Source: Acidobacteriaceae bacterium (lineage in GTDB: Bacteria; Acidobacteriota; Terriglobia; Terriglobales; Acidobacteriaceae). Taken from it: a stretch of DNA of 64,000 nucleotides. Of this stretch, positions 9,231 to 25,273 are shown one piece after another. The notes under the pieces were generated by a model, which worked only from the letters and a program-made list of their open reading frames with translations, made no database searches and had not been told where the DNA came from. Where the stretch lies: the NCBI GenBank assembly GCA_003134995.1, contig PLDC01000019.1, positions 468,517 through 532,516 of the forward strand. The letters are read 5' to 3'. Both the position numbers and the translations under genes were made by a program. Positions within the stretch are counted from its first letter, which is position 1; each line of letters starts with the position of its first letter.

Positions 9231-9254
9231 AGACCCTTCCTCCGTGGCCGGAAT

Positions 9255-10694
9255 TTACTTTCCGGCGAGTGCAGCGACAGGCGCGTGTGCGACTGCCGGC
9301 GATGAAACTTTAAGTTCAGACTCAATTTGTTCCACTACATTGCGAAATTGATGTTCGAATGCATCTTTGTTCTTGTTCGCAGTGCCGCCGATCCAGAGTT
9401 TCAATTGGCCATGAGCGTCGCGGACGGGCACGGCCCACACGCGCTTGTGGACGAAGTAGAAGACCAGAGCGAGGCCGAGTCCCATCAGGACTACGCCCGC
9501 CCAAACTGCCCACTGGCCGGGCTCGTGCGAAACTTCGAGGCCGGTGAAGTAAGCCATCTGCACATCTTTGCCTCGGAATATGTAGGGCGAAGCCGCGTCT
9601 TCCTGCAAGCCTGAGCCGACCCAGACGTCTACCGACTGTGCTACCTTCTTGGATTCGACGACGAGGTGCGCTGCGGGATTTTGCAATTCGGTGGAGCGGG
9701 CGTATACATGGCCATCCTGCACCACAAAGTCGGGAATGAATTCGGCGAGACGAACGGTAGTATCGGCGTCCAGAGTGTGCGTCTCGTTGGGACCGATCTT
9801 GAATTCCTGGGGATTCTGGCCCTCGCGCGGCGTGGCGGTGAGCGCGAGTGAATCGAGCTTACCCGTGTTGCCGTAGCTGGCCTGATAAAACCGCACGCCG
9901 TGATAAACCAGAGGATCGTTGACGACGATCTGCTTGCGCAGGATCACTTGTCCATCTTTGACAACCGAGAGATCGGACCACCAGCGTTTAGGAGACCCGT
10001 CGGCGTAGTTCTCCTGGCCGGCGCCGTCACAGCGGACGGCAAATGGCAGCGTGCGCGGGCTTGCGTTTTGTGGCGTTACCTGACTGGACTCTTGCCCGCG
10101 AGTCAGCATGATGAAACCGCGCCATCCCCACAGGGCGTCGACGATGCCTCCGAGAAAAATCAGAAGCAGACTGGCGTGCACGATATAGACCGCCATTTCA
10201 GAGAAGCGGTTGCGCTCGCCGAAAAGAGAGAAGTTGTTCTGGCGCACGATGCGCTCCGGTCCGAACCCTTCTTTTTGCAGCACGCGTTCCGCGACGCTCA
10301 AAGCGGTTTCTTCATCCTTGATCGGAATGAGCGCGTGGCCGGGCAGCCCTTTGCGGAAGGCTTCATCCGGACTCTTGTAAGGACGCGAGAAAAATCTCCA
10401 GGCATTCGGGAAGCGCTGAATCGAAGCCGAAATGATGCTGAGGCTAACCAAGCTCAACAGCAATACAAACCACCAGGCGTGGAAGACATCGCTGAGCTTC
10501 AGTGCGTCGAGCAGGTGAAGCACTTGTGGCGAATAGGCTCGCTGCATTTCGTCGGCTTCGGTGGCAGGGCGCTGAAGAATCACGGTCCCCGCAGCCGAGA
10601 GTAGAACGACGAGGATCAGCAGAATGACGCCGGTCTTGATCGCGCCCAGCGTTTGCCAGAGCTTTCGAGGTACAGATTGGACGTGTGCCCCCAT
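9255..10694 (-). CDS. resB: Cytochrome c biogenesis protein ResB
   Basis: A 479-residue ResB-family protein of the System II cytochrome c maturation pathway, paired with CcsB. Membrane segments lie near residues 20-42 and 72-94, a third near 170, and the last near 405, with a large periplasmic domain before the last. I choose the ATG at 10694 because GGAAGGGG lies seven bases before it; a longer frame opens at 10826 without such a site. It heads the minus-strand unit resB-ccsB-kinase-regulator and is divergent from the multihaem cytochrome cluster, with a shared control region. Confidence 0.93.
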   Translation of the reverse strand: MGAHVQSVPRKLWQTLGAIKTGVILLILVVLLSAAGTVILQRPATEADEMQRAYSPQVLHLLDALKLSDVFHAWWFVLLLSLVSLSIISASIQRFPNAWRFFSRPYKSPDEAFRKGLPGHALIPIKDEETALSVAERVLQKEGFGPERIVRQNNFSLFGERNRFSEMAVYIVHASLLLIFLGGIVDALWGWRGFIMLTRGQESSQVTPQNASPRTLPFAVRCDGAGQENYADGSPKRWWSDLSVVKDGQVILRKQIVVNDPLVYHGVRFYQASYGNTGKLDSLALTATPREGQNPQEFKIGPNETHTLDADTTVRLAEFIPDFVVQDGHVYARSTELQNPAAHLVVESKKVAQSVDVWVGSGLQEDAASPYIFRGKDVQMAYFTGLEVSHEPGQWAVWAGVVLMGLGLALVFYFVHKRVWAVPVRDAHGQLKLWIGGTANKNKDAFEHQFRNVVEQIESELKVSSPAVAHAPVAALAGK

Positions 10695-11279
10695 TGTGTT
10701 TCCCCTTCCCCGCTTCAGCAAAGCACGTTGTGCGCCATTGCGAAGAAAGTCGGCGAAGTGATTGAAATTCCAGAGAATAGGCCGGTTCCGTGAGAAATTC
10801 GGAACGCGGGGTTTGAGCCAAATCACACAATGGAATGGAGTTGTACGGGAATTTGGCGCAGCGTGAGGAGCGGAACAGGTTTGCTAAAACCATCCCATTT
10901 CGGGCTCACTTAATCTTGGGCGCCTACTCTTCCTGTGACAAGATCACTCCCGCATGTGACTGAAATCACAGAACAATCGAGCCCCGAACCGGCAAGACTG
11001 ATTATCAGATTGAAGTGCTTTGCGCTAGAAAATGTTCAGTGTGCCGGAGTGTGCGGAAGCGGGGGATAGTTACTTTGGGTGATTTTGACCATTGCACTGT
11101 GCGATAAGCCCCCAAAGTGATGGAGCTTAAGAACAATAGTCATTTTTCGCGGGATAGAACGCAATCGCCAACTGATTCTGTTGCAATCTGTTACAAGGAG
11201 GTTTAGATATTTACCGAAGTGGGAAACTACGGCGAGGTGCGTGCATGAGCATTATGCAACAGCATCTGAGGAGGCAGTG
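10695..11279. other. Divergent control region between resB and the cytochrome cluster
   Basis: This 585-bp region separates resB (minus) from the 16-haem cytochrome gene (plus). It contains a perfect TGTGA-N6-TCACA palindrome at 10955-10970 and a degenerate partner at 10934-10948, described separately. An AAGGAGG at 11195-11201 looks like a ribosome binding site but no convincing in-frame start follows it. A TTG-started frame could open at 11181. No clear sigma-70 or sigma-54 promoter could be assigned by eye. Confidence 0.6.
10934..10970. promoter_or_regulatory. Two CRP/FNR-type operator boxes
   Basis: Positions 10955-10970 read TGTGACTGAAATCACA, a perfect match to the TGTGA-N6-TCACA consensus of the CRP/FNR regulator superfamily. 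A weaker box, TGTGACAAGATCACT at 10934-10948, is centred about 21 bp away, close to two DNA turns, which suits cooperative binding on one face. The position between resB-ccsB and the cytochrome genes suggests joint control. The regulator is not encoded in the window. Confidence 0.75.
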
Positions 11280-12749
11280 GTGGGTGTGGCATTGGGATCA
11301 ATCAAATCGAAGTTCGGCAAATCGAAGTTCGGCGCCAGCTTCAGGCTAAGCTCGCTCGTCGGCTTCCTGTTGCTGTTTGTTTTTGCCGGGCGGATTTCCG
11401 CGAAGGAACATCCGGTGCCGCTCGATCCGAAGGCTGATCCCTCGACTTGCGTTGCCTGCCATGAAGACAAGACCAAGGGCAAGTCGGTGCACTCCGCGAT
11501 TGCCATGGGCTGTACCAGTTGCCATGAAATCCGCACGGTTCGAAACGTAACCCACGTCAAGCTGATCACGACCACGTCCCACGGGCTTTGTCTCACTTGC
11601 CACGCGGATAAAAATGCCGACGATATTAAAGGTACGGTGCATCCGCCGGCAGTGCGCGATTGCGTGAAGTGCCACGACCCGCACACCTCCGATAACAAGA
11701 ATCAGTTGTTAAAGCCGGAGTCGGGCGACAAGAAAGAGAATCTCTGCCTGAGTTGCCACACGACCGGCGAGAACGTTCCCGAGAAGGGCAGCCGTCATGC
11801 AGCTCTCGACATGGGCTGCGAAACCTGCCACATCACGCACAAGACTGGTGCAGAACCAACAACGGAAAATCACTTTCATTTGACGAAGGCTGCGCCTGCG
11901 CTGTGCGTGGATTGCCACGATACGAAAGATGCCGCCTTGCAGAAGGCGCACCAGAACCAGCCGTTTGGCACGGCGAACTGCCTGCAGTGTCATGACCCGC
12001 ACCAGTCCGCATCGCCGAAGCTGATGGCCAAGTTCACGCATCCGCCGTTTGCAGATAAGAGTTGCGATACCTGCCATGCCCCTGCGAAAGATGGCAAAGT
12101 TGTTCTGACCCAGGCCAACGTGAAGGACCTTTGTGTTACGTGCCACTCCGATAAAGCTGAACTGATCGAGAAGGCGAAGGTGCAGCATCCAGGAGCGGCG
12201 GGCGATTGCACCGACTGCCACAATCCACATGCCAGCGCGTATCCGGGCTTGCCGAAAACGGATCCCGTTAACATTTGCCTGGGGTGCCACAGCGAAATCG
12301 CTGATCTGGAGAAGAAGCGAGTTCACCACCAGCCGGCATTTGTGCAGGGTTGCGGAATTTGCCATATGGCGCACGGCGGCGACAACCAGCATCTGTTGCG
12401 GGTTGCCGACACGAACAAACTTTGCCTGGAATGCCACGGCCCCGATACGAAGCCTGCGAAGCTCGAGAGCGAGCATCTGGTGACGATTTTCGGCGGTGCC
12501 GTGAAGTTGCCGGATAACTACTTTGCGAAGGTGCCGATTCTGCCGTTGAAGTACAACCTGGGGCACCCGGTGGACCGGCATCCGATATCGAACGTGATGG
12601 AAGGGACTGATATCACCAAGGTTAAGTTCGCCATCAACTGCCTGACGTGCCATCAGCCGCATGCTTCGGCACAGCCGGGATTGTTGGCGAAAGATCAGAA
12701 GAATGATTCGTTGTTCTGTGCGAGCTGTCACAAGGATCTCCGAAAGTAA
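11280..12749 (+). CDS. Exported 16-haem c-type cytochrome
   Basis: A 489-residue exported multihaem cytochrome. I count sixteen CXXCH motifs, spaced about 25-35 residues apart from CVACH near the N-terminus to CASCH near the C-terminus, many followed by a second His in the doubled CxxCHxxH pattern (for example CVKCHDPH, CLQCHDPH, CTDCHNPH). This belongs to the doubled-CXXCH/cytochrome c3-like superfamily and suits a long haem wire. A GTG at 11280 has GAGGAGG five bases upstream and gives a signal peptide (LSSLVGFLLLFVFAGRISA). A TTG-started extension to 11181 is less likely. It is first in the cluster and probably periplasmic or surface-exposed. Confidence 0.93.
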   Translation: MGVALGSIKSKFGKSKFGASFRLSSLVGFLLLFVFAGRISAKEHPVPLDPKADPSTCVACHEDKTKGKSVHSAIAMGCTSCHEIRTVRNVTHVKLITTTSHGLCLTCHADKNADDIKGTVHPPAVRDCVKCHDPHTSDNKNQLLKPESGDKKENLCLSCHTTGENVPEKGSRHAALDMGCETCHITHKTGAEPTTENHFHLTKAAPALCVDCHDTKDAALQKAHQNQPFGTANCLQCHDPHQSASPKLMAKFTHPPFADKSCDTCHAPAKDGKVVLTQANVKDLCVTCHSDKAELIEKAKVQHPGAAGDCTDCHNPHASAYPGLPKTDPVNICLGCHSEIADLEKKRVHHQPAFVQGCGICHMAHGGDNQHLLRVADTNKLCLECHGPDTKPAKLESEHLVTIFGGAVKLPDNYFAKVPILPLKYNLGHPVDRHPISNVMEGTDITKVKFAINCLTCHQPHASAQPGLLAKDQKNDSLFCASCHKDLRK

Positions 12750-12795
12750 GGGGAGGGCGGCGCGATTGGGTGAATATTCGTGGGTGGGTACGAAG

Positions 12796-14136
12796 ATGAG
12801 TGAGGGTAAAAAGATGATTTCACAACTAGGCAACACGTTTACGATGCGACGTGGAAGGCTGGGAACGGCGGCATTGGTAGCGCTGCTGACAGCCTCCTCT
12901 ATTTTGGCTTTCGGGGATGACACCAAGAAGAAGAAAGACGATGCGACGCCGCAGAAGAAGGTTTCGATCCTCGACGTGATCGATAAATCGAAGGTGGTGT
13001 GGCCGCAGCCACCGATGATCGCGCGGGTGAAATACCTGGACTATTTCGCGGGCGAAAAGCTGCCTGACTTCAGCGCGCAGCAGGCTAAACCGAAGAGCAG
13101 TTGGATGGACCGGCTGGCCGGCACCAGCGCAGAAAAGACTGACAACCCCCTCAAGAACCATTTCTTCATGGGGGAGCCGCATGGGCTGGCGGTTGATTCC
13201 AAGGGCAGGCTCTATGTTGCCGATGGCAAGGTGGGCGCCATCTTTATCATTGATCCGGAAACCAAAGATACGGTGATGATCAAGAATGGCAAAGATGCAA
13301 ATTTCGTTCTGATTAATGGGCTAGCCATTGACGACGCCGACCGGCTTTTCGTCTCCGACTCTCAGGCTCACCGGATTCTGGTTTTCAACAAGGACCATAA
13401 GGGCGAGGCCGCGATCACGTCGGGTCTGGTTACTCCCGCCGGGATGGCGATCGATAACGAGAACCGGTTTCTCTATGTCGCCGATATCGGACTGGACCAG
13501 GTGCTGGTGTTTGATGCCGACACACTCGAGCCGATTCGCAAGATTGGAACTGCGGATACAAAACATCAGTCGAGCGCGTTGGGAGATTTTTCCAAGCCGA
13601 CCAGCGTGGCCGTCGATTCCGACGGAAACGTCTATGTAGCCGACATGCTCAACTACCGGGTTGAGATTTTCGATGCCGATGGCAAGTTCATTCGCACGTT
13701 CGGAAAGCATGGCGATGGTCCGGGCTATTTCGCGATGCCCAAGGGAATCGCGGTGGATGGCGATGGCCATATTTGGGTTACGGACACGATGCAGAACCGG
13801 GTTCACCTGTTTACCCAGGATGGCGATCTGCTGATGTGGATGGGCAACAAGCAAGGCGTTCTGCCCGGCACGTTTTCCGGTCTGCAGGACATCTACTTTG
13901 ACAGCAAGCTGAACCGGGTCTTCACCTCCGAGGTTTATCCGGGGCGGGTGCAGATGTTCCGCTATGTGACGCAGGAGGAAGCGCAGAAGGAGCACGAAAA
14001 GCGCGAGGCGTTGAAGGCCGCGAACAAGACTCCGGATGTTAAGCCAGCGGCCAAGCCTCCGAAGGAAATTCCGGCGCCGTTCCCAACGCAGAAGCCGGCC
14101 GACACTGCCAAGCCGCCTGCCAATGATTCGAAGTGA
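12796..14136 (+). CDS. Exported NHL-repeat (six-blade propeller) protein
   Basis: A 446-residue exported beta-propeller. After a signal peptide (TAALVALLTASSILAFG) and a lysine-rich linker come six NHL-type repeats with the pattern G(L/I)AVD..G.LYVAD....R(V/I).(V/I)F, then a proline/lysine-rich tail (about 60 residues). NHL propellers are protein-interaction platforms with no catalysis. The start at 12796 leaves a 46-bp gap after the cytochrome gene; ATGs at 12814 and 12844 are alternatives. A paralogue is encoded at 19216. The repeated pairing of NHL protein and multihaem cytochrome suggests that it scaffolds or docks cytochromes at the envelope. Confidence 0.88.
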   Translation: MSEGKKMISQLGNTFTMRRGRLGTAALVALLTASSILAFGDDTKKKKDDATPQKKVSILDVIDKSKVVWPQPPMIARVKYLDYFAGEKLPDFSAQQAKPKSSWMDRLAGTSAEKTDNPLKNHFFMGEPHGLAVDSKGRLYVADGKVGAIFIIDPETKDTVMIKNGKDANFVLINGLAIDDADRLFVSDSQAHRILVFNKDHKGEAAITSGLVTPAGMAIDNENRFLYVADIGLDQVLVFDADTLEPIRKIGTADTKHQSSALGDFSKPTSVAVDSDGNVYVADMLNYRVEIFDADGKFIRTFGKHGDGPGYFAMPKGIAVDGDGHIWVTDTMQNRVHLFTQDGDLLMWMGNKQGVLPGTFSGLQDIYFDSKLNRVFTSEVYPGRVQMFRYVTQEEAQKEHEKREALKAANKTPDVKPAAKPPKEIPAPFPTQKPADTAKPPANDSK

Positions 14137-14169
14137 GTTTGTAGAAACCTCCCTCTGAGGTTGTGGTGT

Positions 14170-14205
14170 GCAAAGGCTTAGCGAGTTTACTCGCTAAGCC
14201 TTTGC
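14170..14205 (+). terminator. Perfect 15-bp hairpin after the first NHL gene
   Basis: Arms 14170-14184 and 14191-14205 are exactly complementary over 15 bp with a six-base loop GTTTAC. It begins 34 bp after the NHL stop codon. No T run follows, so it could be a transcript-stabilising or attenuating hairpin instead of an intrinsic terminator. Confidence 0.55.
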
Positions 14206-14225
14206 AACTGCGGTTAAGAAAAGTT

Positions 14226-14323
14226 GTCGTCCCGAGCGAAGCGAGGGATCCTGGTTTCCGCCCGCGCCACGAGTATTGCCCCTGCGGGCAAACACCAAGA
14301 TCCCTCGCTTTGCTCGGGAAGAC
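14226..14323. repeat. MITE/REP-like inverted repeat element, copy A
   Basis: The 98-bp element starts GTCGTCCCGAGCGAAGCGAG and ends with the inverted form CCCTCGCTTTGCTCGGGAAG. A second copy with the same layout is at 49950-50048. The two also share internal sequence next to the right arm (GCAAACACCAAGATCCCTCG), so they are related by descent and not only by arm similarity. No coding capacity is present. Confidence 0.75.
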
Positions 14324-14682
14324 AATTTGCTCGGGATGTCAGATCGCTTTGCTCCAGATGACAAATCGCTCGGGACGACAAGTCCCTCCAGCGAGTTCCC
14401 ACCAGCGAGTTCCCTCCCGCCCTGCCCTGGTTGCCGACTGTGCGGGAGTTTCCACAGGCTGCGGGTTACGTGGGGCTTTTCAACCAGTGAGTGAGTTGGA
14501 AAGCCCATTAAAAGCGTTACCTCAGGCACTGCTGGATTTTGCAACAGATTGGATTTCTCCAACAAACGGTCTGCATTCAGTTACTTAGGTAAACCGTGCC
14601 AGATGCACAGGGTCTGACCAAAAGGGGTGGGCAGCGTGCATAAACAATGTCCGAGTAGTCAATCTTAGAGGAGGCTTCACCA

Positions 14683-15759
14683 ATGAAAAAGCTATTTTTA
14701 GTTCTGCTTATGGTGGTTATGGTCTCGGCCATGGGCATCGCCCAGGTTACACAAGCCGCACACGCCACATCATCCGGAGCACCCGGAGCCGTCGCACCCA
14801 CGGTCGACGTCCTCGGCGCTCACCAAAACTACGGCCGCGGTTGTGCGGGCTGCCATGCTCCACACAGCGGCGCATGGGGCGAAGGCGGCAACAAGGTCAG
14901 CGGCACCGTCACCGATGCCTACACCGGTAGCAATGCACTGTTTGGGCAAGACATGGGACCTCTCTGGGGCCAGACGTTTGACTTCAGCGATGTTTCCAAC
15001 ACCCTCACCAACGGCAACGGCAGCGCCAACAAATATACGTTGGTAACCGCCGCGAACGGAAACCCGACAACCATGACTGCACAGCAATACTCCGATATGC
15101 GTGGCGTAGTAATGTGCTTGGCTTGCCATGACGGCGCAGTCGCCAAGGGCGCCATGATGCAGAACTGGGCCTTTGAAGAGCAGATCGGAGCCCTGCCGAG
15201 TTCTTACGGCACGGCCAAGATCCCGACCTTACTGGGCGCAGACGGCACGACCAACCTCGGCCTTTCGACCGACGGCGGAAACTACAACAACGACCACCCG
15301 ATCGGCGAGAACGCGACGATCGCCGCAGTGCTGGGCGCCTACTATAACCCAACCACCGGCAATGGCTTGACCTACGTTGTCGCCAATGGCGCCATCACTT
15401 CGATCACGCCCGTCGGCTCGTATGTGAATTTTATCGCTTCCTACGGGGCGCCCGCCCTGATGAAGGGTGCGCACTCCTACGGAACCCCGGTCAACGCTTC
15501 GAACGTTCCCTACGTGGTTTGCACGACCTGCCACGACCAGCACTCGATGAACGTGTACTCCGTGGTGGGTGGTCAGAACACGATCGCCGGCAACGCTACC
15601 GGAACGTATGCGAAATACTTCTTCATCAACGGCCCCTACAACCCGAACACGGTGAACATCCCGTTGGGAACGGCCGCTTCCACAACCCAGTTCTGCCGCC
15701 AGTGCCACTTTGGCGAGTCGAACGAAGCCAACGGCGGCACGCTGCCGACGACTTTCTAA
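14683..15759 (+). CDS. Exported 4-haem c-type cytochrome
   Basis: A 358-residue exported cytochrome with a clear signal peptide (KKLFLVLLMVVMVSAMGIA) and AGAGGAGG about 9 bases before the ATG. Four CXXCH motifs lie at residues 54-58 (CAGCHAPHSG), 145-149 (CLACHDG), 280-284 (CTTCHDQH) and 338-342 (CRQCHFG). Long glycine/asparagine/threonine-rich spacers separate them. The order CHAPHSG, GPLWGQT, CLACHDG, DHP, CxxCHxxH also appears at the start of the 638-residue cytochrome at 20326, so the two share a module. Low haem density and strong translation signals suit an abundant surface or filament protein, but that is inference. A strong terminator follows directly. Confidence 0.92.
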   Translation: MKKLFLVLLMVVMVSAMGIAQVTQAAHATSSGAPGAVAPTVDVLGAHQNYGRGCAGCHAPHSGAWGEGGNKVSGTVTDAYTGSNALFGQDMGPLWGQTFDFSDVSNTLTNGNGSANKYTLVTAANGNPTTMTAQQYSDMRGVVMCLACHDGAVAKGAMMQNWAFEEQIGALPSSYGTAKIPTLLGADGTTNLGLSTDGGNYNNDHPIGENATIAAVLGAYYNPTTGNGLTYVVANGAITSITPVGSYVNFIASYGAPALMKGAHSYGTPVNASNVPYVVCTTCHDQHSMNVYSVVGGQNTIAGNATGTYAKYFFINGPYNPNTVNIPLGTAASTTQFCRQCHFGESNEANGGTLPTTF

Positions 15760-15775
15760 CTTTGTAGATCGAATC

Positions 15776-15808
15776 GGGGAGGGGGATTTTCCCCTCCCCC
15801 TTTTTATT
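15776..15808 (+). terminator. Rho-independent terminator after the 4-haem cytochrome gene
   Basis: A perfect 9-bp stem GGGGAGGGG (15776-15784) pairs with CCCCTCCCC (15791-15799) across a six-base loop and is followed by CTTTTTATTT. It starts 17 bp after the stop codon. It divides the cytochrome cluster into at least two transcription units. Confidence 0.9.
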
Positions 15809-16184
15809 TGCTTTGAACTCTCAGTCAGGGTAATGGCGGTTGTGAGGGAGTAGGGATCTTTCGACTCCACATGGTCCTCGGCTTCGCCGATGACCATGTT
15901 CCGCTCAAAGCTTGCCCTGAGCCTGTCGAAGGGATGACAGCGTAGGTTTCCTTGGGTTATTTCACCAGATCGATAGCGGCAGAACGCCCATTGCGCACCT
16001 CCGCGACGCTGCAAAGATTCTTTCATCTGTCAGCCCGGTGGCCGCAACTCATTCCAGCTAAATAACTTGCAGGAACCCGGAAAGATTTTGGCAGGGCCGG
16101 CAGAAGGGCAAACGCCGTGCACAATACAGGGTGATTCTGGCAGGTGGGGTGTTCAGAAATTTGGAGATTGGGCGAGGAGTTTCC
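15809..16184. other. Intergenic region with an interspersed repeat fragment
   Basis: No gene is supported. Near 15900-15940 lies GCTTGCCCTGAGCCTGTCGA followed by AGGGATGAC, which resembles a short repeat that I have seen scattered in many environmental bacterial genomes. The stretch from about 16060 to 16180 should hold the promoter of the chaperone-barrel-cytochrome unit, but I could not assign -35 and -10 boxes. Confidence 0.5.
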
Positions 16185-17282
16185 ATGAAATACCGACTTC
16201 AGATGGCGGGGCTGGTCCTAGTTGTATGCGGAGCAGTAAGCGCAAGCGCACAACAGATGATGAGTTCACACGCTCCGACGACGGCAGCAGGTGCTCCAGC
16301 AACAGCAGCAGCACCGGCTCCGAGCGCGAAGTATCCGGCGGCAGCCAAAGCGGTAAATTCCGGCGTTGACGCCTCGAGCCTGATGGTGACGGGCAAGGCT
16401 GTGGTGAAGGTAAATGACGCGGTGCTGACCGACCGCGACCTGCTCCGGGAAATGTTCGCGCTGTTCCCGTACGCGAAGCTGCATGGCGGCTTCCCGAAGA
16501 AAGAGGAACCGGAAATCAGGCAGGGCGCGCTGCAGATGATCGTATTCGAGGAGTTGGTGTACCAGGAGGCGCTGCGGCAGAAGCTGACGATTGCGCCAGC
16601 GCGAGTGACTCGCGAAGAGAAGAATTTCAAAAGCCAATTCCCCACCGAGGCGGAATTCAACCAGTATCTGAGCACGGAACAGGACGGATCAGAGGCGAAG
16701 CTGCGGCAGTTGATCAAGCGCTCGCTGCTGATCGAGGCCATGCTGAAGCAGGAAGTGAACGACAAGGCCGGGGTCACGCTGACCGAGGCGCGAGCCTACT
16801 ACCTGAAGAACACGAAGGCGTTCGAGCACGGCGAGACTTTCGCGCTGCAGACGATTTCGATTATTCCCGCGGAACAGGCGAGCGCCCAGGTGGTTGCGGA
16901 CGCGCGCAAACGCGCGGAGGGAATTCTGGAACAGGCCAAGGCAACCAAGAGCTATCAGCAGTTTGGACTGCTGGCGGAGAAAGTTTCGGAAGACGATTTT
17001 CGCGTGAATCTTGGCGACCGGCATGTGGTGAAGGGCGAGAATCTTCCGCCGGAGGTGGTGAAAGTTGCCGAGAAGATGAAACCGGGCGAAGTGAGCGGGC
17101 TGATTCCGCTGGGCACGGCCTGGACGATTATTCGAGTGGGCGCACATACGCCCCCGGGCAAGTCAACCTTCGCCGAGGTAAAAGCGAAGCTGATGGAGAA
17201 TCTTCAGAAACAAAAATCCGAACAGCTGAGGGTGGGGCTGGACAAGCGGTTGCATGAGGGCGCGCAGATTCAGGAGCTGTAA
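16185..17282 (+). CDS. SurA-like periplasmic chaperone / peptidyl-prolyl isomerase
   Basis: A 365-residue exported protein of the SurA/PpiC type. The ATG at 16185 follows GCGAGGAG at good spacing, and a signal peptide ends around ASAQQ. An alanine/proline-rich linker leads to a SurA-like N-terminal helical domain (residues about 70-200, beginning VVKVNDAVLTDRDLLREMF) and a parvulin-like domain (about 215-330, with FALQTISI, LGDRHVVKGENLPPEVVKVAEKMKPGEVSG). Such proteins escort outer-membrane beta-barrels through the periplasm. It lies directly upstream of a large predicted barrel, which is its likely client. Catalytic isomerase activity cannot be judged from the sequence alone. Confidence 0.85.
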   Translation: MKYRLQMAGLVLVVCGAVSASAQQMMSSHAPTTAAGAPATAAAPAPSAKYPAAAKAVNSGVDASSLMVTGKAVVKVNDAVLTDRDLLREMFALFPYAKLHGGFPKKEEPEIRQGALQMIVFEELVYQEALRQKLTIAPARVTREEKNFKSQFPTEAEFNQYLSTEQDGSEAKLRQLIKRSLLIEAMLKQEVNDKAGVTLTEARAYYLKNTKAFEHGETFALQTISIIPAEQASAQVVADARKRAEGILEQAKATKSYQQFGLLAEKVSEDDFRVNLGDRHVVKGENLPPEVVKVAEKMKPGEVSGLIPLGTAWTIIRVGAHTPPGKSTFAEVKAKLMENLQKQKSEQLRVGLDKRLHEGAQIQEL

Positions 17283-17371
17283 AGACGTTGGCGGGAGGTC
17301 AGAGTTTCAGACTTTCGGCTGCGAATGGACGGCAAGGTTGGCACGCGAAAGTTTTAAGGGATGGGGCGGAC

Positions 17372-19234
17372 GTGAACAGTCAGAGAAACAACGCGCGTGT
17401 GCTCGGTTGGCTGCTGGCATTCGGGGTGATGCTGGCGGGCCAGGGATGGGCTCAGATCGAGATCGGCAAGAACACGAGCATGAGCCTGAGCGGAGACGTG
17501 GGGTTCGGCTATAACGGAAGTAACGGCGACACGATAGGCTCAAGTCATAGCACGCTTTTTAGCGGCGATGCCGTCCTGCAAGGTTATTACTACAATCCCA
17601 GGTTTTTGAGCTACTACGTTGATCCTATCTACAATCGGTCGCAGGCGGATTCGGGGGAAGGCTCGCTTACCAATGCGTCCAACGTCAGCGCGGGAGTGAA
17701 CCTGTTCAGCGGCAGCCACTTTCCCGGATCCATATCGTTCGGTGAAGGATTCAACACGAGCGGGACCTATGGGATAGGCGTGACCCCGGGGCTTGACACC
17801 ACAGGCAAGTCGCACAGCTTCGGCATTGGGTGGGCAGAACTCATTCCGGGTGCGCCGCCTGTGAACATCCAGTATTCGCAGACGGCTTCGGAAAACTCGA
17901 TTTTTGGCACCAGCCAGGACGATCACACGGACGCAAAAAATCTCAACGTCTTCAGCAACTACAAGCTCGCGGGCTGGTATATGGGAGCGCACCTGACCGA
18001 TACCTGGACGAGTACGGAGTTGCCGGCGTTGATAACCGGCACTGATCAGGCCGTTACCGGGGACACGAATTCAAAGTCATTTTCCGTCAACGCAAACCAC
18101 AAACTGCCGCTGCGGGGCTCATTTGGAGCGAGCTACGGATGGTCTGATTTCACTGGTAATGAGAACGGTTCCAGCTATTCCGGTGGTAACCAGACGTTGA
18201 GCGCGAGCGCCGCCTTTGCGCCCACAGACAGGTTCACGTCATCGTTCCAGGCTAACTACGACAGCAGTCTCGCAGGGTCCATCGAACAGCAACTCATCGG
18301 CGTGGGCGCGGTTACTCCGCAGGTTGATCTGGGCAAAAGCAGCTACTCGATTTCCCTCAACAACTCCGACAATGTGGTGATTACTAAGAGCCTGTCGGCC
18401 GGGTTCAATGTGGGCCACGTCGAGCAAGTGGTGTACGGCGAAACCGTCTCAGCAACCCACTTTAGCGCGATCATCGACTACCGGTTTCTGAAGCCGCTTT
18501 GGGGTACGGTCGTGGTCTATGCCGGGTTAAACGACGAGGCGACAGAAGCGGGGAACACGGGAGCGGGTCTGATTGCGGGAGTGAACTTCACCAAACAATG
18601 GAGCAATTTCGAGCTGGACGGAAGCTTCGGCTATTCGCAGGATACGCAGACGGTGCTGGCCACGGAGGTGACGTCCAATTATTCCTACCTGGCAAAAGCG
18701 CAGCGCCGCCTGGGCCGCCGGGTGCGGTGGTTGACTACATTTAACGGTTTCCACACCGGGTTGGGCGAGGCAGAGGGTTCGAGCGCCCATGCGGAATCCT
18801 ACGGAACCCAGCTCGTGTACAAGATGTATAACGTGGGAGCGACCTACGGTCACACTTCGGGTACGGTGCTGCTGACTGCGAATGGGCTGGTGGCGGCGCC
18901 GGGCACGCTTGCGCCGGTGCTGACGGCCAATGGGTCGCTGCTCGATACCGGCTCCTCTTACTCATTCAGCTTTACGACCAACCCGATACGCCGGCTTTCG
19001 TTCAGCACCAGCTACATGAGAACGCTCAATGACAGCCTGGCTGGGGTGGCGGGGGCGGCCGCTTCGAACAGCGCGTCGAAGGTATATCTGATGTTCACCA
19101 CTTACCAGTTCCGCAAGATGGTGTTTACAGCGGGGTATACTAACCTGAATCAGTTTGTCAGCGCATCTGGGCTGCCGCCCGCCAGCTACACGAATTTTTA
19201 CGTCGGAATCCAACGATGGTTCAAGGCCTTCTAG
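17372..19234 (+). CDS. Large outer-membrane beta-barrel protein (620 aa)
   Basis: A 620-residue exported protein with a signal peptide (VLGWLLAFGVMLAGQGWAQ) after a GTG start at 17372; longer starts at 17288 lack a ribosome site. The mature protein is made of alternating polar/hydrophobic strands rich in Gly, Ser, Asn and Tyr and ends in a C-terminal phenylalanine (QRWFKAF), the usual signal for barrel insertion. No known porin family motif or N-terminal CXXC is seen. The length would allow about 26 strands, in the range of MtrB/PioB-type electron-conduit barrels. Neighbours are a SurA-like chaperone upstream and an NHL protein plus a multihaem cytochrome downstream, which suggests a porin-cytochrome conduit. 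Confidence 0.82.
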   Translation: MNSQRNNARVLGWLLAFGVMLAGQGWAQIEIGKNTSMSLSGDVGFGYNGSNGDTIGSSHSTLFSGDAVLQGYYYNPRFLSYYVDPIYNRSQADSGEGSLTNASNVSAGVNLFSGSHFPGSISFGEGFNTSGTYGIGVTPGLDTTGKSHSFGIGWAELIPGAPPVNIQYSQTASENSIFGTSQDDHTDAKNLNVFSNYKLAGWYMGAHLTDTWTSTELPALITGTDQAVTGDTNSKSFSVNANHKLPLRGSFGASYGWSDFTGNENGSSYSGGNQTLSASAAFAPTDRFTSSFQANYDSSLAGSIEQQLIGVGAVTPQVDLGKSSYSISLNNSDNVVITKSLSAGFNVGHVEQVVYGETVSATHFSAIIDYRFLKPLWGTVVVYAGLNDEATEAGNTGAGLIAGVNFTKQWSNFELDGSFGYSQDTQTVLATEVTSNYSYLAKAQRRLGRRVRWLTTFNGFHTGLGEAEGSSAHAESYGTQLVYKMYNVGATYGHTSGTVLLTANGLVAAPGTLAPVLTANGSLLDTGSSYSFSFTTNPIRRLSFSTSYMRTLNDSLAGVAGAAASNSASKVYLMFTTYQFRKMVFTAGYTNLNQFVSASGLPPASYTNFYVGIQRWFKAF

Positions 19235-20322
19235 CGCGATCCGATGCGGGGAATTGGGTCGGCTTGTGTCTTTGCATGGTGCTGGCCGTTGGTGTGGCCG
19301 TGCCGGCATATGCGGAAGACGCCAAGGCGGAGAAAAATGAGCCGACTCCGGGACCCGAGTTGTTGCTGCAAGGCGGGCGCAAGCTGGCTTTTGTGCGCAC
19401 CTTTACCACGGACCGCGACGTTTCGCCGAAGCGGAGCTTCTTCAAAAAGGTGATCGACGTGGTGGCGGGAGCGCCGGACCGGCATCAGACGATCCGTCCC
19501 TATGGAATTGCCGTGGACTCGCGCGGGCGGGCGATTGTGACGGACCCGGGGGCGATGGGCATCCACATCTTTGATTTTCGCGACCACAAATATAAATTCA
19601 TCGCGCGCAATGACAAAGATGAGAACTCGATGAAGTCTCCGCAGTGCGTTGCCGTGGATGCGCAAGACAACTTTTATGTGACGGACTCGGAAACTGGGAG
19701 GATTTTTGTTTTCGAGCCAGGAGGGAAGTTCAAGCGCATCATCGGCAATCTGAAAGGCGGAGAAGGTTTTTTCAAGCGGCCCACGGGGATTGCGGTGGAT
19801 TCGGCGGCGCAGAGGATCTACGTCACAGACACGCTGCGGAACAAGGTTTACGTTTTGGATATGCAGGGAAGCGTGATGCAGATGATCGGCAAGACGGGAA
19901 CAGGAAACGGGGAATTCAATTTTCCGACGGAGATTGTTTTGCACGGGCAGGATCTGGCAGTGGTGGACACGATGAATTTCCGCGTGCAGGTCTTTGATCG
20001 CGGCGGGACCTTCAAGTACGCCATAGGCAACGTCGGCGACGGAGAAGATTTCGGAAGCTTCTTTCGTCCGAAGGGAATCGGGTTCGACAGCGAAGGACAC
20101 CTGTACGTGGTGGATGCCGCATGGAGCAGAGTGCAGGTATTCGATCAACTCGGTGAGTTGCTTTATTACTTTGGGACACGGGGAGAAAAACCGGGAGCGT
20201 TCAACCTGCCTTCCGGCATGTTCATCGATCGGAACGACAGCGTGTACATCGCGGATTCTTACAACAGCCGTATCCAGGAGTTTCAGTACTACGGGAAGCG
20301 AGAGCCGGGCGGAGGCCAGTGA
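19216..20322 (+). CDS. Exported NHL-repeat protein, second copy
   Basis: A 368-residue exported six-blade NHL propeller with signal peptide (VGLCLCMVLAVGVAVPAYA). Repeats follow the pattern P.GIAVD..G..YVTD....R(I/V).VF, with clear copies near residues 92-120, 142-168, 190-216, 238-262, 286-312 and 333-360. Its first 19 bases overlap the end of the barrel gene, so translation is probably coupled. The next gene starts 3 bp after its stop. It is a paralogue of the protein at 12796 but lacks the proline/lysine-rich tail. The tight placement between barrel and cytochrome supports a structural role in the same complex. Confidence 0.88.
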   Translation: MVQGLLARSDAGNWVGLCLCMVLAVGVAVPAYAEDAKAEKNEPTPGPELLLQGGRKLAFVRTFTTDRDVSPKRSFFKKVIDVVAGAPDRHQTIRPYGIAVDSRGRAIVTDPGAMGIHIFDFRDHKYKFIARNDKDENSMKSPQCVAVDAQDNFYVTDSETGRIFVFEPGGKFKRIIGNLKGGEGFFKRPTGIAVDSAAQRIYVTDTLRNKVYVLDMQGSVMQMIGKTGTGNGEFNFPTEIVLHGQDLAVVDTMNFRVQVFDRGGTFKYAIGNVGDGEDFGSFFRPKGIGFDSEGHLYVVDAAWSRVQVFDQLGELLYYFGTRGEKPGAFNLPSGMFIDRNDSVYIADSYNSRIQEFQYYGKREPGGGQ

Positions 20323-20325
20323 GAG

Positions 20326-22242
20326 ATGAAGTGGCGGCTAGTATTCGCGGCTCTGCTTTGCATGACGGGTAGCCTGCAAGGGCAATTCAGCGGCGATGTG
20401 CTGGGATCGCATGACATGGGTCCCGGCGGAACATCGCCGGTGAAGGGCGGGCTGCCTCCTTGCCAGTTTTGCCATGCGCCTCACTCGGGAAATAGCAAGG
20501 GGCCGCTTTGGGCCCAGACGTATTCTACGCAGATTTACAATCTTTACCGCAGCACCACTGATCCGGCCCAGACGATGGAACAGCCGCCGATCGGCGCGCC
20601 CAGCAGCCTGTGCCTGAGTTGCCACGATGGAACGGTTGCTCCTGGTCAGACCATACCTTACGGCAAACTTCAGACGCAGGGAACCATGAGTGCCAGCGAT
20701 ATTCTCGGGACGAGCCTGCAGAATTCGCATCCATTCAGCTTCAATAAGCTAAAGGATCAGGCCGACCTGGTAGCAAGTTTGATATCGAAGGGGCAACCCC
20801 AGGATCCGTTGCAGAGGGTGACGCTGATCAATGGAAACGTTGAATGTGAGAGCTGCCACAATCCCCATGTTCAAAATGTAGACACGACTTCGCTGAACTT
20901 CCTGGTGAGAAACAATGCCGGAGGTGCGATGTGCCTTTCGTGCCACGCAACATCTCCGCGCACAGTGAACTCCCTGAAGAACCAGTTGGTCTCGTGGCCG
21001 AACGGCGTGCACGCCACCATTTCGAACGCGATTCTGCCGGCAGCGAATGTGGGACCCTACGCCACCGTGGCTCAAAACGCGTGCACCAGTTGTCATGTGC
21101 AGCACAATGCGAACGGTCCGGCACGATTGTTGCGCGGGGCAACGCCGGCGCCGGCGAACATGGATTCCTACACGCAGAACTGCATAACCTGCCATAACGG
21201 CAACAGAAATATCTCTCCGAGCGTCGCGAACGTTTATGCGGAGTTCTCGAAGTACTCCTACCATCCATATCCCTCAGGGAATAGCACGCACGACACGGCT
21301 GAGGCGATCCTTGTAAATAACAACCGCCATGCCACTTGCGCGGACTGCCACAACGGGCACGGGGCGCAGCAAACGACTGCGTTCGCGGCTCCGCCGCTGC
21401 TTCGTCCGTCTCAGAATGCGGTGAATGGAATTTCTGCCAGCGATGGAATCACGCCTGTCACGCCAGCAGTAAACCAATATGAGAATTGCCTTCGTTGCCA
21501 CGGGAGCTCGACCGGCAAGGCCACTACATCCAAATTTGGATATCTCCCGGTGCGGTACGTGGCTAACCCAGCGGATCCTAACAATGTCATTACGCAGTTT
21601 GCCGCCACAGCATCCTCAAGCCATCCCGTAACGCACACTAACTCCTCCAGTTACCCTCAACCCAGTCTTCTCCCTTACATGTCGCAACTCAACGGAACCA
21701 GTCAGGGGCGACTGATGGGCATCCAGATTTTTTGCACGGACTGTCACAACAGCGATGACAATCGCGAATTCGGCGGATTGGGCCCCAGCGGCCCGCATGG
21801 ATCCAAATGGCCCCACCTTTTGGAGCGCCGTTATGAATTAAGCCAGGCACCCGGCCGCGGCCAGCGGATTACGAACCTTTTTCCAAACCCAGATCTATCG
21901 GTGAATGGGCCTTACGCGATGTGCGGCAAATGCCATGATCTCCCGGGCAATATCATCAAGAACACAAGTTGGTCGCAGCACTCCGCACACATCAATTCTG
22001 GATTTACATGTTCTACGTGTCATACCGCGCACGGGATAGCAGGCAGAAATGGAACTGTTAGCGGAGATCGGCTCGTCGACTTCGACCTGAATGTAGTTGC
22101 TCCGAACGGCGGGGCGCCCATTTCTTACAATGGAAACACTGGAACCTGCGCGTTGGTCTGCCATGAAGTGGCACACAACGCAAACGGCACGGTCGGCACC
22201 GCCACCGCAGCCCCCCGCAGCGGATCAAGTCCCAGGCCGTGA
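20326..22242 (+). CDS. Exported 11-12-haem c-type cytochrome
   Basis: A 638-residue exported cytochrome with a short signal peptide (KWRLVFAALLCMTGSLQG). I count eleven CXXCH motifs (CQFCH, CLSCH, CESCH, CLSCH, CTSCH, CITCH, CADCH, CLRCH, CTDCH, CGKCH, CSTCH) plus one variant CALVCH at residues 608-613 that has three residues between the cysteines. The first quarter repeats the module of the 4-haem protein (CHAPHSG, GPLWAQT, CLSCHDG, HPF). It starts 3 bp after the second NHL gene and its end overlaps the next gene by 4 bp. It is probably the terminal or outer cytochrome of the proposed conduit. Confidence 0.92.
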   Translation: MKWRLVFAALLCMTGSLQGQFSGDVLGSHDMGPGGTSPVKGGLPPCQFCHAPHSGNSKGPLWAQTYSTQIYNLYRSTTDPAQTMEQPPIGAPSSLCLSCHDGTVAPGQTIPYGKLQTQGTMSASDILGTSLQNSHPFSFNKLKDQADLVASLISKGQPQDPLQRVTLINGNVECESCHNPHVQNVDTTSLNFLVRNNAGGAMCLSCHATSPRTVNSLKNQLVSWPNGVHATISNAILPAANVGPYATVAQNACTSCHVQHNANGPARLLRGATPAPANMDSYTQNCITCHNGNRNISPSVANVYAEFSKYSYHPYPSGNSTHDTAEAILVNNNRHATCADCHNGHGAQQTTAFAAPPLLRPSQNAVNGISASDGITPVTPAVNQYENCLRCHGSSTGKATTSKFGYLPVRYVANPADPNNVITQFAATASSSHPVTHTNSSSYPQPSLLPYMSQLNGTSQGRLMGIQIFCTDCHNSDDNREFGGLGPSGPHGSKWPHLLERRYELSQAPGRGQRITNLFPNPDLSVNGPYAMCGKCHDLPGNIIKNTSWSQHSAHINSGFTCSTCHTAHGIAGRNGTVSGDRLVDFDLNVVAPNGGAPISYNGNTGTCALVCHEVAHNANGTVGTATAAPRSGSSPRP

Positions 22243-24407
22243 GGCTTGACTCGAAGGGGTCAGGCCGTCCGGTTATGACATCCCTGCGCCAAACCCGCTT
22301 ATCACAGTGCGCGCGACTAGCCCTTTTTATTCTTGCGCTTCTATATGCATTTGCCGCGGGCCTGCGAACTCTGGGAGATTTCGATCTTGGATGGCAACTG
22401 GCAACGGGCCGCTGGATCGTGCAGCACGGGCGCATACCATTTACAGATGTTTTCTCTTATACCGCTGCTGGCACGGAGTGGATTTATCCAGTTCTGTCGC
22501 AAGTTTTGCTTTATCTGTCATACGTGATTGGTGGCTATGGCCTTTTGTCGTGGCTAGGCGCGGCAGCTTGTGTGGGGACAGTCGCTCTTCTGCTGCATCG
22601 TTCTTCCACTGCAGGTGTGATTCTGACGATTGTGTCGGTTCCACTCATTGCTGCCTGCACCCCGCCCCGGACCGAAATGTTCACGGCAATCCTGTTCGCT
22701 GCATACGTAAACCTTTTATGGCACTACCACGAATCGGGAGAAGCTCGGTTGTGGTTGCTTCCCGTGCTCATGTGCTTGTGGGTGAACTTGCACTTAGGAT
22801 TCATCGCGGGCTTGGCGATGTGCGCGGCATACGTCTTGCTCGAACTCGAAGATGCGATTGCGCCTTCGCGCAGACTTGGCGCCTTGCTTCGATTGAAAAA
22901 GGCATGGCCGTGGCTGCTTGCCACGCTCGCAGCCACACTCGTCAACCCATGGGGTTGGCGAATTTATGTAGCGATAGAACGACAGCGGAGCATCGTTCAA
23001 ACCCATAGTTTATGGATTTCGGAATGGGAAGGATTGCGACTCACTCCCGCCGCTTTCGCAAAGGCACTCGCATGGCGTGACCCGGACGGCGCCGTTTATT
23101 GGTTGATACTCGCTGCAGTGGTCGCCGTACTCTGCGCATTAGCAAAGCGCAAATTCGTGCCAGCATTTCTTCTGGCGAGTGCGATCTATCTCGTGATCCA
23201 TGCCATACGGATGGAGGCGTGTTTCGCAACCATCACTGTAGTGATTGGGGGAACTTTTTTGTCGCAAGCTGCAAGTTCGGTTCGTGAACGGATTGCGACT
23301 CGCTATCAAGTATCCTCGCGTACCAGAATGTTCGCTGCAGTCACTTCGATTGCAGTAATAGCGTGTTTTGTGGCCGTCAGGGGTTATGGCCTCGTTACGA
23401 ACCGCGTTTATCTCAGATCTCCTTTCTCATTTTCTATCTTTGGAGCGGGGCAATCTGTGTGGGCTCCCGAGCAGGCGGAAGCATTTGTACTAAAAGAAAA
23501 ACTTCCGCGCAATTTGTTTCACGACTTCAATTCGGGCGGCTTCGTAGTGTGGAACCTCTCACCCGCATACCCGGATTACATTGACGGTCGTTCCGTTCCT
23601 TTTGGAGGCTCGTTGCTGATGCGCAATTCGAGCCTGTTAGAGCAATCGCTGGATTCAGAAGCATGGCGCAGTGAAGCCAACACAAGAGAAATTAACACTA
23701 TGCTCTTGTCCATGGATTTCGAGGCGGGAAACGCACTGCGAAGTTTGGGCAGCTATTGCGACGCGCAACAATGGCGACCGGTTTTTCTGGATGCGTTCGG
23801 CGCGGTTTTTTTGCGTGTCGTGCCGGAAACGACCGATTTTGTTCATCGACTTCAGATCGACTGCAAAACCGTGCAGTTTGCGGATCCGCCACCCACCATT
23901 TCGAGCGCCGAGCAATTTCGGTATCTATTAAACGTTGGAACGATTATGGTCGTCCTCGATCGAAATGAGGAAGCCCAGCAACGCCTGGAAAAGGCGGAGC
24001 GGATCTTTACAGAGAATGCATTCTTGCACTATGCGAAAGGAGTCGCACTGGGGAATATGGGGTTTCCGGAAGACTCCGAGCGTGAGTTCCTCATTTCGAC
24101 AAAACTTGGCTCAACGGATGATGCTCCAGTCGCACTTGCGCGAATTTACGATCACGACGGTCGCTATGAGGACGAGGCACAGGTTCTGAAAAACGCAGCC
24201 GACCGAGCCAGCAGACCCCATTGGTTGTATCTGATGCTGGGTAAGGTCGAACTTAAACTTGGACATTCAGACCTTGCGCTGGCCGCATTTCAGAAGGCCG
24301 AGCGCGAAAGTCCATTCCGCGGCGAAGCTTATTCACTAGGAACAGAATTCCGGTCACAGGTTGAGGCGGGAAAACAGCGTGCGACGGAGAGTACGTCGAA
24401 GAACTGA
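22239..24407 (+). CDS. Multi-pass membrane protein with C-terminal TPR domain (722 aa)
   Basis: A 722-residue protein with about ten transmembrane helices in residues 20-380, a soluble region containing FHDFNSGGFVVWNLSP and YIDGRS, and a C-terminal TPR-like helical region (about 560-710). The arrangement resembles uncharacterised membrane proteins related to GT-C-type glycosyltransferases, but I see no certain catalytic motif. The GTG at 22239 overlaps the stop of the cytochrome gene by 4 bp; an ATG at 22275 is an alternative. Coupling to the cytochrome genes could mean a role in modification or assembly of the surface complex. Function is otherwise unknown. Confidence 0.75.
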   Translation: MRLDSKGSGRPVMTSLRQTRLSQCARLALFILALLYAFAAGLRTLGDFDLGWQLATGRWIVQHGRIPFTDVFSYTAAGTEWIYPVLSQVLLYLSYVIGGYGLLSWLGAAACVGTVALLLHRSSTAGVILTIVSVPLIAACTPPRTEMFTAILFAAYVNLLWHYHESGEARLWLLPVLMCLWVNLHLGFIAGLAMCAAYVLLELEDAIAPSRRLGALLRLKKAWPWLLATLAATLVNPWGWRIYVAIERQRSIVQTHSLWISEWEGLRLTPAAFAKALAWRDPDGAVYWLILAAVVAVLCALAKRKFVPAFLLASAIYLVIHAIRMEACFATITVVIGGTFLSQAASSVRERIATRYQVSSRTRMFAAVTSIAVIACFVAVRGYGLVTNRVYLRSPFSFSIFGAGQSVWAPEQAEAFVLKEKLPRNLFHDFNSGGFVVWNLSPAYPDYIDGRSVPFGGSLLMRNSSLLEQSLDSEAWRSEANTREINTMLLSMDFEAGNALRSLGSYCDAQQWRPVFLDAFGAVFLRVVPETTDFVHRLQIDCKTVQFADPPPTISSAEQFRYLLNVGTIMVVLDRNEEAQQRLEKAERIFTENAFLHYAKGVALGNMGFPEDSEREFLISTKLGSTDDAPVALARIYDHDGRYEDEAQVLKNAADRASRPHWLYLMLGKVELKLGHSDLALAAFQKAERESPFRGEAYSLGTEFRSQVEAGKQRATESTSKN

Positions 24408-25190: not shown

Positions 25191-25273
25191 TGTCATGCTC
25201 CTTGCAACATTCTGTTGCTTCCCGGCCGAAGCCAACACGGGCCAGCTTCGCCCCTTACAATCCCGAACAGACG

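Follow-up and report, generated by a model that had tools for sequence, protein, structure and literature searches.

A Uet/OmcE-type gene cluster in an Acidobacteriaceae bacterium: a probable electrical route out of the cell

Organisation of the gene cluster

A 64,000-nucleotide stretch of contig PLDC01000019.1 of an Acidobacteriaceae bacterium (assembly GCA_003134995.1, positions 468,517 to 532,516), hereafter the window, was analysed for a cluster of seven genes for exported proteins at 11292-22242 on the forward strand, in the order cytA, nhl1, cytB, ppi, barrel, nhl2 and cytC, with resB-ccsB divergent from it (Table 1). Its genes probably encode an electrical connection from the cell to the outside, in which a filament of haem proteins is docked on a pore in the outer membrane; all roles given to its proteins are read from sequence. 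CytA, CytB and CytC carried 16, 4 and 11 CXXCH motifs, respectively, plus one CX3CH motif in CytC, and their genes were the sole open reading frames (ORFs) of the window with at least two CXXCH. These counts were in agreement with the initial annotation, whose two NHL propellers, SurA-like chaperone and resB-ccsB pair were recovered by Pfam and TIGR matches (for CcsB, E 1e-75). The 620-residue barrel it had predicted was also found, read from a GTG at 17372, with Phe as its last residue and 28 strands in its model. The packing was as tight as claimed, the barrel and nhl2 genes overlapping by 19 nt and nhl2 and cytC being spaced by 3 nt.

The extent of the block was revised. It had been drawn at 10695..24407; the seven cluster genes stood, together with resB-ccsB at 7824-10826, and a gene for a 722-amino-acid (aa) membrane/TPR protein at 22239-24407 was rejected as a cluster part because it was not conserved beside the cluster in relatives. 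The starts of the cluster genes were picked for the best signal-peptide score by simple hydropathy, so that the signal peptides in all seven are partly built in; the start picked for cytA was a TTG in an ORF that opens at 11181.

Table 1. Features of the cluster and of its upstream neighbourhood in the window.
Feature	Position	Strand	Evidence
NtrC-type (sigma-54) response regulator, possible regulator only	5153..6616	-	Pfam Response_reg, Sigma54_activat, HTH_8
HAMP histidine kinase adjoining ccsB	6653..7831	-	Pfam HAMP, HisKA, HATPase_c
ccsB/resC, system II cytochrome c maturation, haem delivery	7824..9230	-	TIGR03144 254 bits, cut-off 187.6
resB, system II cytochrome c maturation	9255..10826	-	Pfam ResB E 7e-86
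cytA, exported 16-haem cytochrome, MtrA/DmsE-like, likely periplasmic wire	11292..12749	+	16 CXXCH
nhl1, exported NHL beta-propeller	12844..14136	+	Pfam NHL E 4e-29
cytB, exported 4-haem cytochrome, OmcE-family/UetA-like, candidate filament subunit	14683..15759	+	4 CXXCH, OmcE His pattern
Hairpin of 10 bp, GC-rich, then CTTTTTATTT; intrinsic terminator/attenuator candidate	15776..15799	+	17 nt past cytB stop
ppi, exported SurA/parvulin-type prolyl isomerase, UetB-like	16185..17282	+	Pfam Rotamase_2 E 1e-14, SurA_N_3 E 3e-7
barrel, predicted outer-membrane barrel of about 28 strands, C-terminal Phe, UetC-like	17372..19234	+	AlphaFold model
nhl2, exported NHL beta-propeller, UetI-like position	19216..20322	+	Pfam NHL E 2e-32
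cytC, exported 11-haem (12 with CX3CH) cytochrome, UetJ-like	20326..22242	+	11 CXXCH

Conservation and co-occurrence

A search with the barrel was positive in 23 of 61 genomes, the window's own included, all from the window's genus. The other positive genomes numbered 22, of which 19 (all but G005, G013 and G024) provided 20 same-genus stretches, and the order cytA-nhl1-cytB-ppi-barrel-nhl2-cytC was unbroken in 20/20, as far as the contigs reach. Full-length copies in the genus held 16 haem motifs in CytA (14/14) and four in CytB (19/19), and CytC held 11 CXXCH in 18/19 and 10 in one; its CX3CH motif was kept in 20/20 genus copies, window included. A divergent resB was seen in 13/20 stretches and the HAMP kinase adjoined ccsB in 10/20, while the NtrC-type regulator was seen in 2/20 (L026, L038), most stretches ending before that position.

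Alignments comprised 19/20 rows for cytB (L043 left out, 5' cut), 20/21 for barrel (L045 left out, 3' cut), 19/20 for nhl2 (L038 left out, split ORF) and 13/18 for cytA (L029 cut; L026 and L041 starting too late; L035 and L043, which are cytC, left out); alignment A3 kept 20/20. The hidden Markov models for class loci and the gap, terminator and hairpin counts used rows above 80% of the median length, with the cytB row of L043 outside the 19/19.

At the class level, the barrel profile was positive in 51 of 399 genomes, and 32 further stretches (20 strong and 12 weak barrel matches) were compared. The 4-haem gene preceded the barrel in 31 (one cut), the 11-haem gene followed it in 30 (two cut), and the second NHL was seen in 31, the sole exception being L105:8979-12880, where no NHL2 was recognised between the barrel and the 11-haem gene. 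The cytA-nhl1 pair was outside the fetched stretch in L096, and the isomerase was not recognised in 11 of the 12 weak stretches. Co-occurrence of the cytochromes with the barrel in related genomes, proposed at the outset as a check, was borne out, the 11-haem gene being present in 50 of the 51 barrel-positive genomes: over the 399 genomes both genes occurred in 50, barrel only in 1, cytC only in 8 (58 genomes with the 11-haem gene) and neither in 340, and cytA was present in 41/51 barrel-positive genomes versus 3/348 others, counts that shared ancestry inflates. A tblastn search of cytC against plasmids gave no match.

Two variations in gene content were seen in the class. A second cytB-like 4-haem gene lay near the cluster in L092, L093 and L097, on the opposite strand in the latter two. 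In L076, L084 and L085, 23-haem ORFs (616-664 aa) adjoined acidobacterial clusters without a 16-haem cytA.

CytB and CytC as relatives of OmcE

The CytC profile matched the OmcE nanowire subunit 7tfs_A in PDB over the first four haems of CytC (E 5.9e-23) and, second, 9yuq_N of a 16-chain entry (E 5e-20); the next PDB match had an E of 0.005. According to the available part of a review, 7TFS is the OmcE nanowire structure, and in OmcE and OmcS filaments an interfacial haem is ligated by His from two subunits. Residues 21-209 of CytC corresponded to the OmcE-type 4-haem domain. In a joint alignment, eight His columns (four in CXXCH and four others) were common to OmcE, 19/19 CytB and 20/20 N-terminal domains of CytC, and the invariant histidines of CytB were these eight only.

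Profile comparison by hhalign gave a similar picture. CytB matched the Geobacter-type OmcE set at 97.7% (E 2e-12, 63 columns) and the N-terminal domain of CytC at 99.1% (E 1e-18), with the best of five control segments, four-haem pieces of CytC and CytA, at 55.7% (E 1e-4). The N-terminal domain of CytC matched OmcE at 99.8% (E 2e-29); its controls reached 96.3% (E 2e-9), and therefore the E-values, not the probabilities, separate OmcE from the controls here. In a tree of OmcE-type domains, for which seven loci of the genus were taken for each gene alongside a selection of loci from outside, the 36 N-terminal domains of 11-haem proteins fell on one side of a branch with weak support (81/45); two rows had very long branches and the bootstrap was unsettled. 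CytC was close to its counterpart in L123, a MAG named as Acidobacteria, which together with an Acido-Lenti-1 RNA in the window points to Acidobacteriota as the source phylum. By these comparisons CytB and the first four haems of CytC belong to the OmcE nanowire family, a kinship that is new from this analysis and had been missed by the initial annotation. Since two of its cytochromes are OmcE relatives, the cluster, judged by these profiles, is more than a plain porin-cytochrome conduit.

Transcription signals

In the genus, the gap before cytB had a median of 435 nt (115-1318) and the gap after it 117 nt (66-425); the ppi-barrel gap had a median of 71, and barrel, nhl2 and cytC overlapped or abutted. 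Within 75 nt past the gene, cytB had a perfect hairpin (8 bp or longer) in 19/19 genus copies examined, compared with 1/15 for cytA, 7/16 for nhl1, 2/20 for ppi, 0/20 for barrel, 2/19 for nhl2 and 3/20 for cytC. A strict terminator rule was satisfied past cytB in 9/19 genus and 10/19 strong class loci, and 0-2 times past other genes; the 10/19 genus cytB copies that it missed were inspected in sequence before the hairpin count was made. A hairpin 3' of cytB is as expected for an abundant filament subunit that would have its own transcription unit, and the pattern in nearer relatives fits an attenuator that may make more subunit than machinery.

Sigma-54 control through a -24/-12 site was considered and rejected, with 20 matches versus 21.6 expected. 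Sigma-70 sites were likewise at chance (6 matches versus 5.5 expected).

CytA and the barrel

The CytA profile matched chain A of PDB entry 6r2q, presumably MtrA (6r2q_A, E 1e-20). According to the database entry, 6r2q is the Mtr complex. CytA scored 172.8 bits with DmsE TIGR03508, below the cut-off of 192.2, and 44 bits with TIGR03507 (OmcA/MtrC; cut-off 209), an NCBIfam cut-off that no protein searched reached. Pfam PF22113 (MtrC/MtrF domain II/IV) was above its cut-off of 30 in both CytA (37.2) and CytC (48.2).

The AlphaFold model of the barrel, in which the long strands were counted from the listing, had a predicted local distance difference test (pLDDT) value of 70 and a predicted template modelling score of 0.54. 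The barrel had no Pfam match above cut-off, and the MtrB/PioB family (PF11854) had 0 matches in its genome. The top matches of a fold search (Foldseek, VIA) were TonB-type receptors, with MtrB also in the list, at template modelling (TM) scores of 0.28-0.43 and a root-mean-square deviation above 11 A. A substrate-specific porin or transporter, the identity that would have spoken against a conduit, was rejected, because no porin family was matched by sequence, the TonB-type fold matches reached only those TM scores, and cytochrome neighbours were present throughout the loci compared. Compared by hhalign, which can mislead on barrels, as reversed-set scores given below reveal, the acidobacterial barrel matched the barrels of eight Uet-type Beta/Gammaproteobacteria loci at 95.6% (E 1e-8, 486 columns), but not LptD (0.1%) or the TonB-type barrels of related genomes (4.4%); the distant acidobacterial barrel set scored 91.8% with the Uet-type and 20.8% with the TonB-type barrels.

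Comparison with known systems

The original description of the undecahaem electron transfer (Uet) cluster is reportedly that of Eddie et al. 2022. In the portion of PMC10734462 available, the Uet cluster of Tenderiales and Gallionella is described as a porin-multihaem cytochrome (MHC) complex, and its hosts include cathode-oxidising Tenderiales and Gallionella. The acidobacterial cluster shared with it, as listed there, a 4-haem cytochrome, a prolyl isomerase, a beta-barrel, NHL proteins and an 11/12-haem cytochrome, matching UetA, B, C, H/I and J. The adjacency UetA-UetB-UetC was mirrored by cytB-ppi-barrel, and the UetJ-like cytC, with homologues in Gallionella and Rhodocyclaceae loci, stood directly after nhl2. 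The relative gene order was that of the fetched Rhodocyclales and Gallionella loci, which held 4-haem, isomerase, barrel, trihaem, NHL and 11-haem genes and were recognised as Uet-type by this composition as described, not by Tenderia reference sequences. Matches to ppi of 53-78 bits were obtained in loci L134-L150.

The differences from Uet were also clear. Its periplasmic trihaem proteins UetDEG had no counterpart in the window, which was the range searched for an ORF with three CXXCH; a 16-haem MtrA/DmsE-like CytA and a further NHL protein lay upstream in their place, resB-ccsB was divergent, and the 11-haem protein was shorter and carried CX3CH. With no trihaem UetDEG, the cluster is a Uet variant and not a full member. 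The initial annotation had suggested that the set may be a distinct type, a reading that is not supported, since the same gene set constitutes the published Uet cluster in the available portion of PMC10734462. In addition, omcE of Geobacter relatives has NHL and barrel-like genes beside it, although the initial annotation had not recognised a barrel with interleaved NHL proteins from a described complex. No description of the cluster in Acidobacteriota was found in the literature searched, but a precedent is possible, as undecahaem porin-cytochrome clusters in cave metagenome-assembled genomes (MAGs) are mentioned in the part of PMC13264449 available.

Querying a species-genome collection with OmcE gave 50 named loci, in which neighbours were counted within 10 kb, contig-cut loci included. 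NHL genes were present in 43, a barrel-like ORF in 26 (called by the rough rule of 480-1000 aa with no more than 5 Cys, a hydrophobic start and an aromatic residue at the end), ccsB in 18, an 11-haem OmcE-domain protein in 16, an isomerase and an MtrA-like cytochrome in 15 each, and resB in 13. Where long enough, the 16 Geobacter-type loci (L108-L122, L128) contained resB-ccsB, 9/8-haem MtrA-like proteins, NHL, OmcE, often a second NHL, and a barrel-like ORF, with NHL in 16, a barrel-like ORF in 14 and resB in 13. The omcE locus of Geobacter relatives thus resembled the acidobacterial cluster in resB-ccsB, MtrA/DmsE-like cytochromes, NHL, an OmcE-family 4-haem protein and a barrel-like ORF ending in Phe, whereas it differed in having 9- and 8-haem proteins instead of CytA and a barrel of about 750 aa not detectably related; neither an isomerase nor an 11-haem protein was found within 10 kb. 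OmcE is a reducer's protein. A similar omcE locus with flanking NHL and barrel-like genes has been noted in Geoalkalibacter, in literature available in part.

Several of the OmcE-type loci had unusual neighbours. In a Desulfuromonadales MAG, a 2,324-aa ORF with 43 CXXCH (L126:10774-17745) adjoined the OmcE-family gene. Gammaproteobacterial and Polarisedimenticolaceae loci (L135, L147, L149, L151, L156) carried a protein of about 1,026 aa with 24 haems, and in L135, L149, L151 and L156 a CbcL-like cytochrome-b ORF (344-368 aa) was seen upstream. Between L135 (assigned to Acidobacteriota) and L147 (Pseudomonadota) the OmcE domain was nearly identical, which suggests recent transfer or a mixed bin. 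On a contig of Bacillus sp. 7884-1 (L157), 10- and 12-haem ORFs and NHL lay near a weak OmcE match (E 6e-4), a multihaem set in a Gram-positive.

The osc (omcS-companion) operon, reportedly described by Shen et al. 2025, is said to include isomerase and propeller-like parts. In G. sulfurreducens, the available part of PMC13194489 assigns folding to OscH, secretion to OscE/F/G and morphology to OscD; as described there, such proteins serve a nanowire cytochrome, a likeness of parts only. A difference is that OmcS is a hexahaem protein without sequence similarity to OmcE, as stated in the part of PMC12977616 available. The initial statement that isomerase and NHL genes neighbour Geobacter nanowire cytochromes was right for the osc/OmcS isomerase, as far as that operon is described, and for NHL at 16/16 omcE loci, but not for an isomerase within 10 kb of omcE in the Geobacter-type loci (0/16).

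With MtrCAB, PCC3 and Oet the cluster had in common a barrel beside multihaem cytochromes. CytA was MtrA-like but with 16 haems versus the decahaem MtrA/DmsE, and the MtrB of MtrCAB was not matched in the genome. MtrCAB has been reported from some Acidobacteriia, and PCC3 is described as combining a porin and an inner-membrane protein with two multihaem cytochromes, both according to sources available in part.

Electron supply in the same genome

The genome also encodes, on contig C12 (L208:3191-7743), a fusion of 13 haems with cytochrome b561, an architecture that we take to be CbcL-like, with a NapC/NirT-type neighbour of 5 CXXCH. Matches to this protein (E up to 1e-40, some partial) were obtained in 53/59 cluster-positive genomes versus 86/340 others. 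The gene lay directly upstream of cytA in G202 (L209) and, by coordinates, likewise in G186; in L036, a stretch from the window's genus, it was a few kb away from cytC. Furthermore, a decahaem cytochrome of the DmsE family (252.9 bits, cut-off 192.2) was encoded on contig C23 (L207:6044-9682), about 137 kb from the cluster, and directly after it came an 886-aa ORF that matched no family; the two are possibly a second, MtrAB-like conduit, though PF11854 finds no MtrB. CbcL-like and decahaem DmsE-family cytochromes are usual in reducers.

Proposed mechanism

The kept gene order, the CytC-OmcE match, the shared histidines, the hairpin, the pairing of cytA with the barrel, the CbcL-like neighbour and the Uet composition are best explained by a Uet/OmcE-type extracellular electron-transfer module, with CytA and the barrel as conduit, CytC as adaptor, CytB as filament and the remaining proteins as folding and assembly factors. 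Electrons likely cross the outer membrane by the cluster, in support of the probable extracellular route that the initial annotation had read from the barrel, the cytochromes and the folding and maturation genes; the exact division of labour is put forward with modest confidence. ResB-CcsB would attach haem in the periplasm, and the SurA-like isomerase may aid the folding of the cytochromes, the barrel or both. The barrel of about 28 strands would sit in the outer membrane, and CytA would span the periplasm into it and carry electrons through. CytC would be an adaptor on the outer face, whose OmcE-type N-terminal domain offers one polymerisation face while its extra haems lead towards the barrel; this base-piece role, suggested by domain layout alone, is the boldest part. 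Many copies of CytB, made from their own transcription unit, may polymerise in OmcE fashion into a haem filament on the CytC base, and assembly or docking may be the task of the two NHL propellers. The probable entry point for quinol electrons is the CbcL-like b/c cytochrome encoded elsewhere in the genome, which would give a route from the quinone pool through the CbcL-like protein, CytA in the barrel and CytC to the filament.

A number of results weigh against this module or parts of it. Three of the four non-CXXCH His columns fell to 0.80-0.93 in the more remote 4-haem proteins (14 distant, 15 outside); HMMER matched CytB directly to PDB but weakly (5.8e-5 for the whole sequence, domain i-Evalue 1, high bias), and the AlphaFold monomer model of CytB had a pLDDT of 40. 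Gene order and content loosen in the class: cytA-nhl1 lay downstream of cytC in 3/32 stretches (L092, L093, L097), 17 kb off in G353 and on another contig in G394, and in the 12 weak stretches CytA had 7 haems in seven and 16 in two and was unrecognised in three. Strict terminators followed cytB in only 2/12 distant class loci, and the inflation of the co-occurrence counts by shared ancestry belongs here as well. The barrel had no sequence match to MtrB and a generic fold match, TonB-type receptors ranking as high, so that CytA is only a putative plug of the barrel. The barrel had no detectable kinship by hhalign to the barrels of Geobacter-type omcE loci (4.9%), and the scores of the reversed controls were 94% for the beta barrel set against itself reversed and 38% for the acidobacterial set against the distant set reversed. 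Moreover, the undecahaem gene of Ca. Tenderia showed no differential expression across electrode potentials, according to a source available in part, and the genome holds three COX1 oxidases, which makes a need for external electron transfer not obvious.

Other explanations were weighed against the same evidence. A plain conduit of the MtrCAB kind, in which CytA lies in the barrel and CytC and CytB stay as monomers on the cell surface and form no filament, would account for the MtrA-like CytA, the large barrel and the PF22113 matches, and would agree with the porin-MHC description of Uet in the portion of PMC10734462 available; it accords poorly with the OmcE kinship and His pattern of CytB and CytC, the hairpin past cytB and the extra cytB-like copies in the class, and we regard it as unlikely. 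The osc roles in folding, secretion and morphology, as given in the available part of PMC13194489, and the recurrence of NHL and isomerase genes beside OmcE-family genes (43/50 and 15/50 loci) suggest instead a nanowire-secretion machine, in which the barrel would be the secretion channel for CytB and CytC, the isomerase a chaperone and the propellers morphology factors, with CytA feeding electrons and forming no plug. The company of an MtrA-like CytA in 41/51 barrel-positive genomes is what a plug would predict, and an encased chain of cytochromes would go well with a barrel of some 28 strands; we regard such a machine as improbable.

The same hardware might also run inward, taking up electrons from Fe(II), minerals or a cathode, and this would be compatible with the other readings. 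The cathode-oxidising hosts of Uet, as named in the available part of its description, and the COX1 oxidases point that way, whereas the CbcL-like partner, the decahaem DmsE-family cytochrome and the occurrence of Geobacter-type omcE loci in reducers point outward; uptake is possible, though we lean against it. A periplasmic cytochrome store or detoxification set beside an unrelated porin, with no electron transfer across the outer membrane, is hardly credible given the synteny and co-occurrence, the OmcE kinship and the recurrence in Geobacter-type, Gallionella and Rhodocyclales loci.

As for the filament docked on a pore, the cluster offers a defined parts list for the question of how cells export cytochrome filaments and connect to them: besides a subunit of OmcE type it holds a larger protein with an OmcE domain, a barrel, a chain resembling MtrA, and factors for folding. 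We suggest, tentatively and with some doubt, that the Uet clusters, the omcE locus of Geobacter relatives and the acidobacterial cluster are one ancient modular system docking an OmcE-type filament on a porin, in which UetJ/CytC would be the base, a one-sided OmcE subunit fused to a chain of 7-8 haems into the pore. If true, this would answer how cytochrome nanowires connect to the outer membrane. The cluster also suggests that the Uet porin-cytochrome complex is worth re-examining for filaments.

Neighbouring features of the window

Directly behind the cluster, two tandem TPR proteins were encoded on the opposite strand (24507-25933); they have a hydrophobic stretch at the N-terminus and weakly resemble CcmH/CycH TPR sequences. 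On the other side, an Acido-Lenti-1 RNA (RF01687, 59.7 bits) was found at 5048-5093, just downstream of the NtrC-type regulator, and an IS1595-family transposase at 1503-2507.

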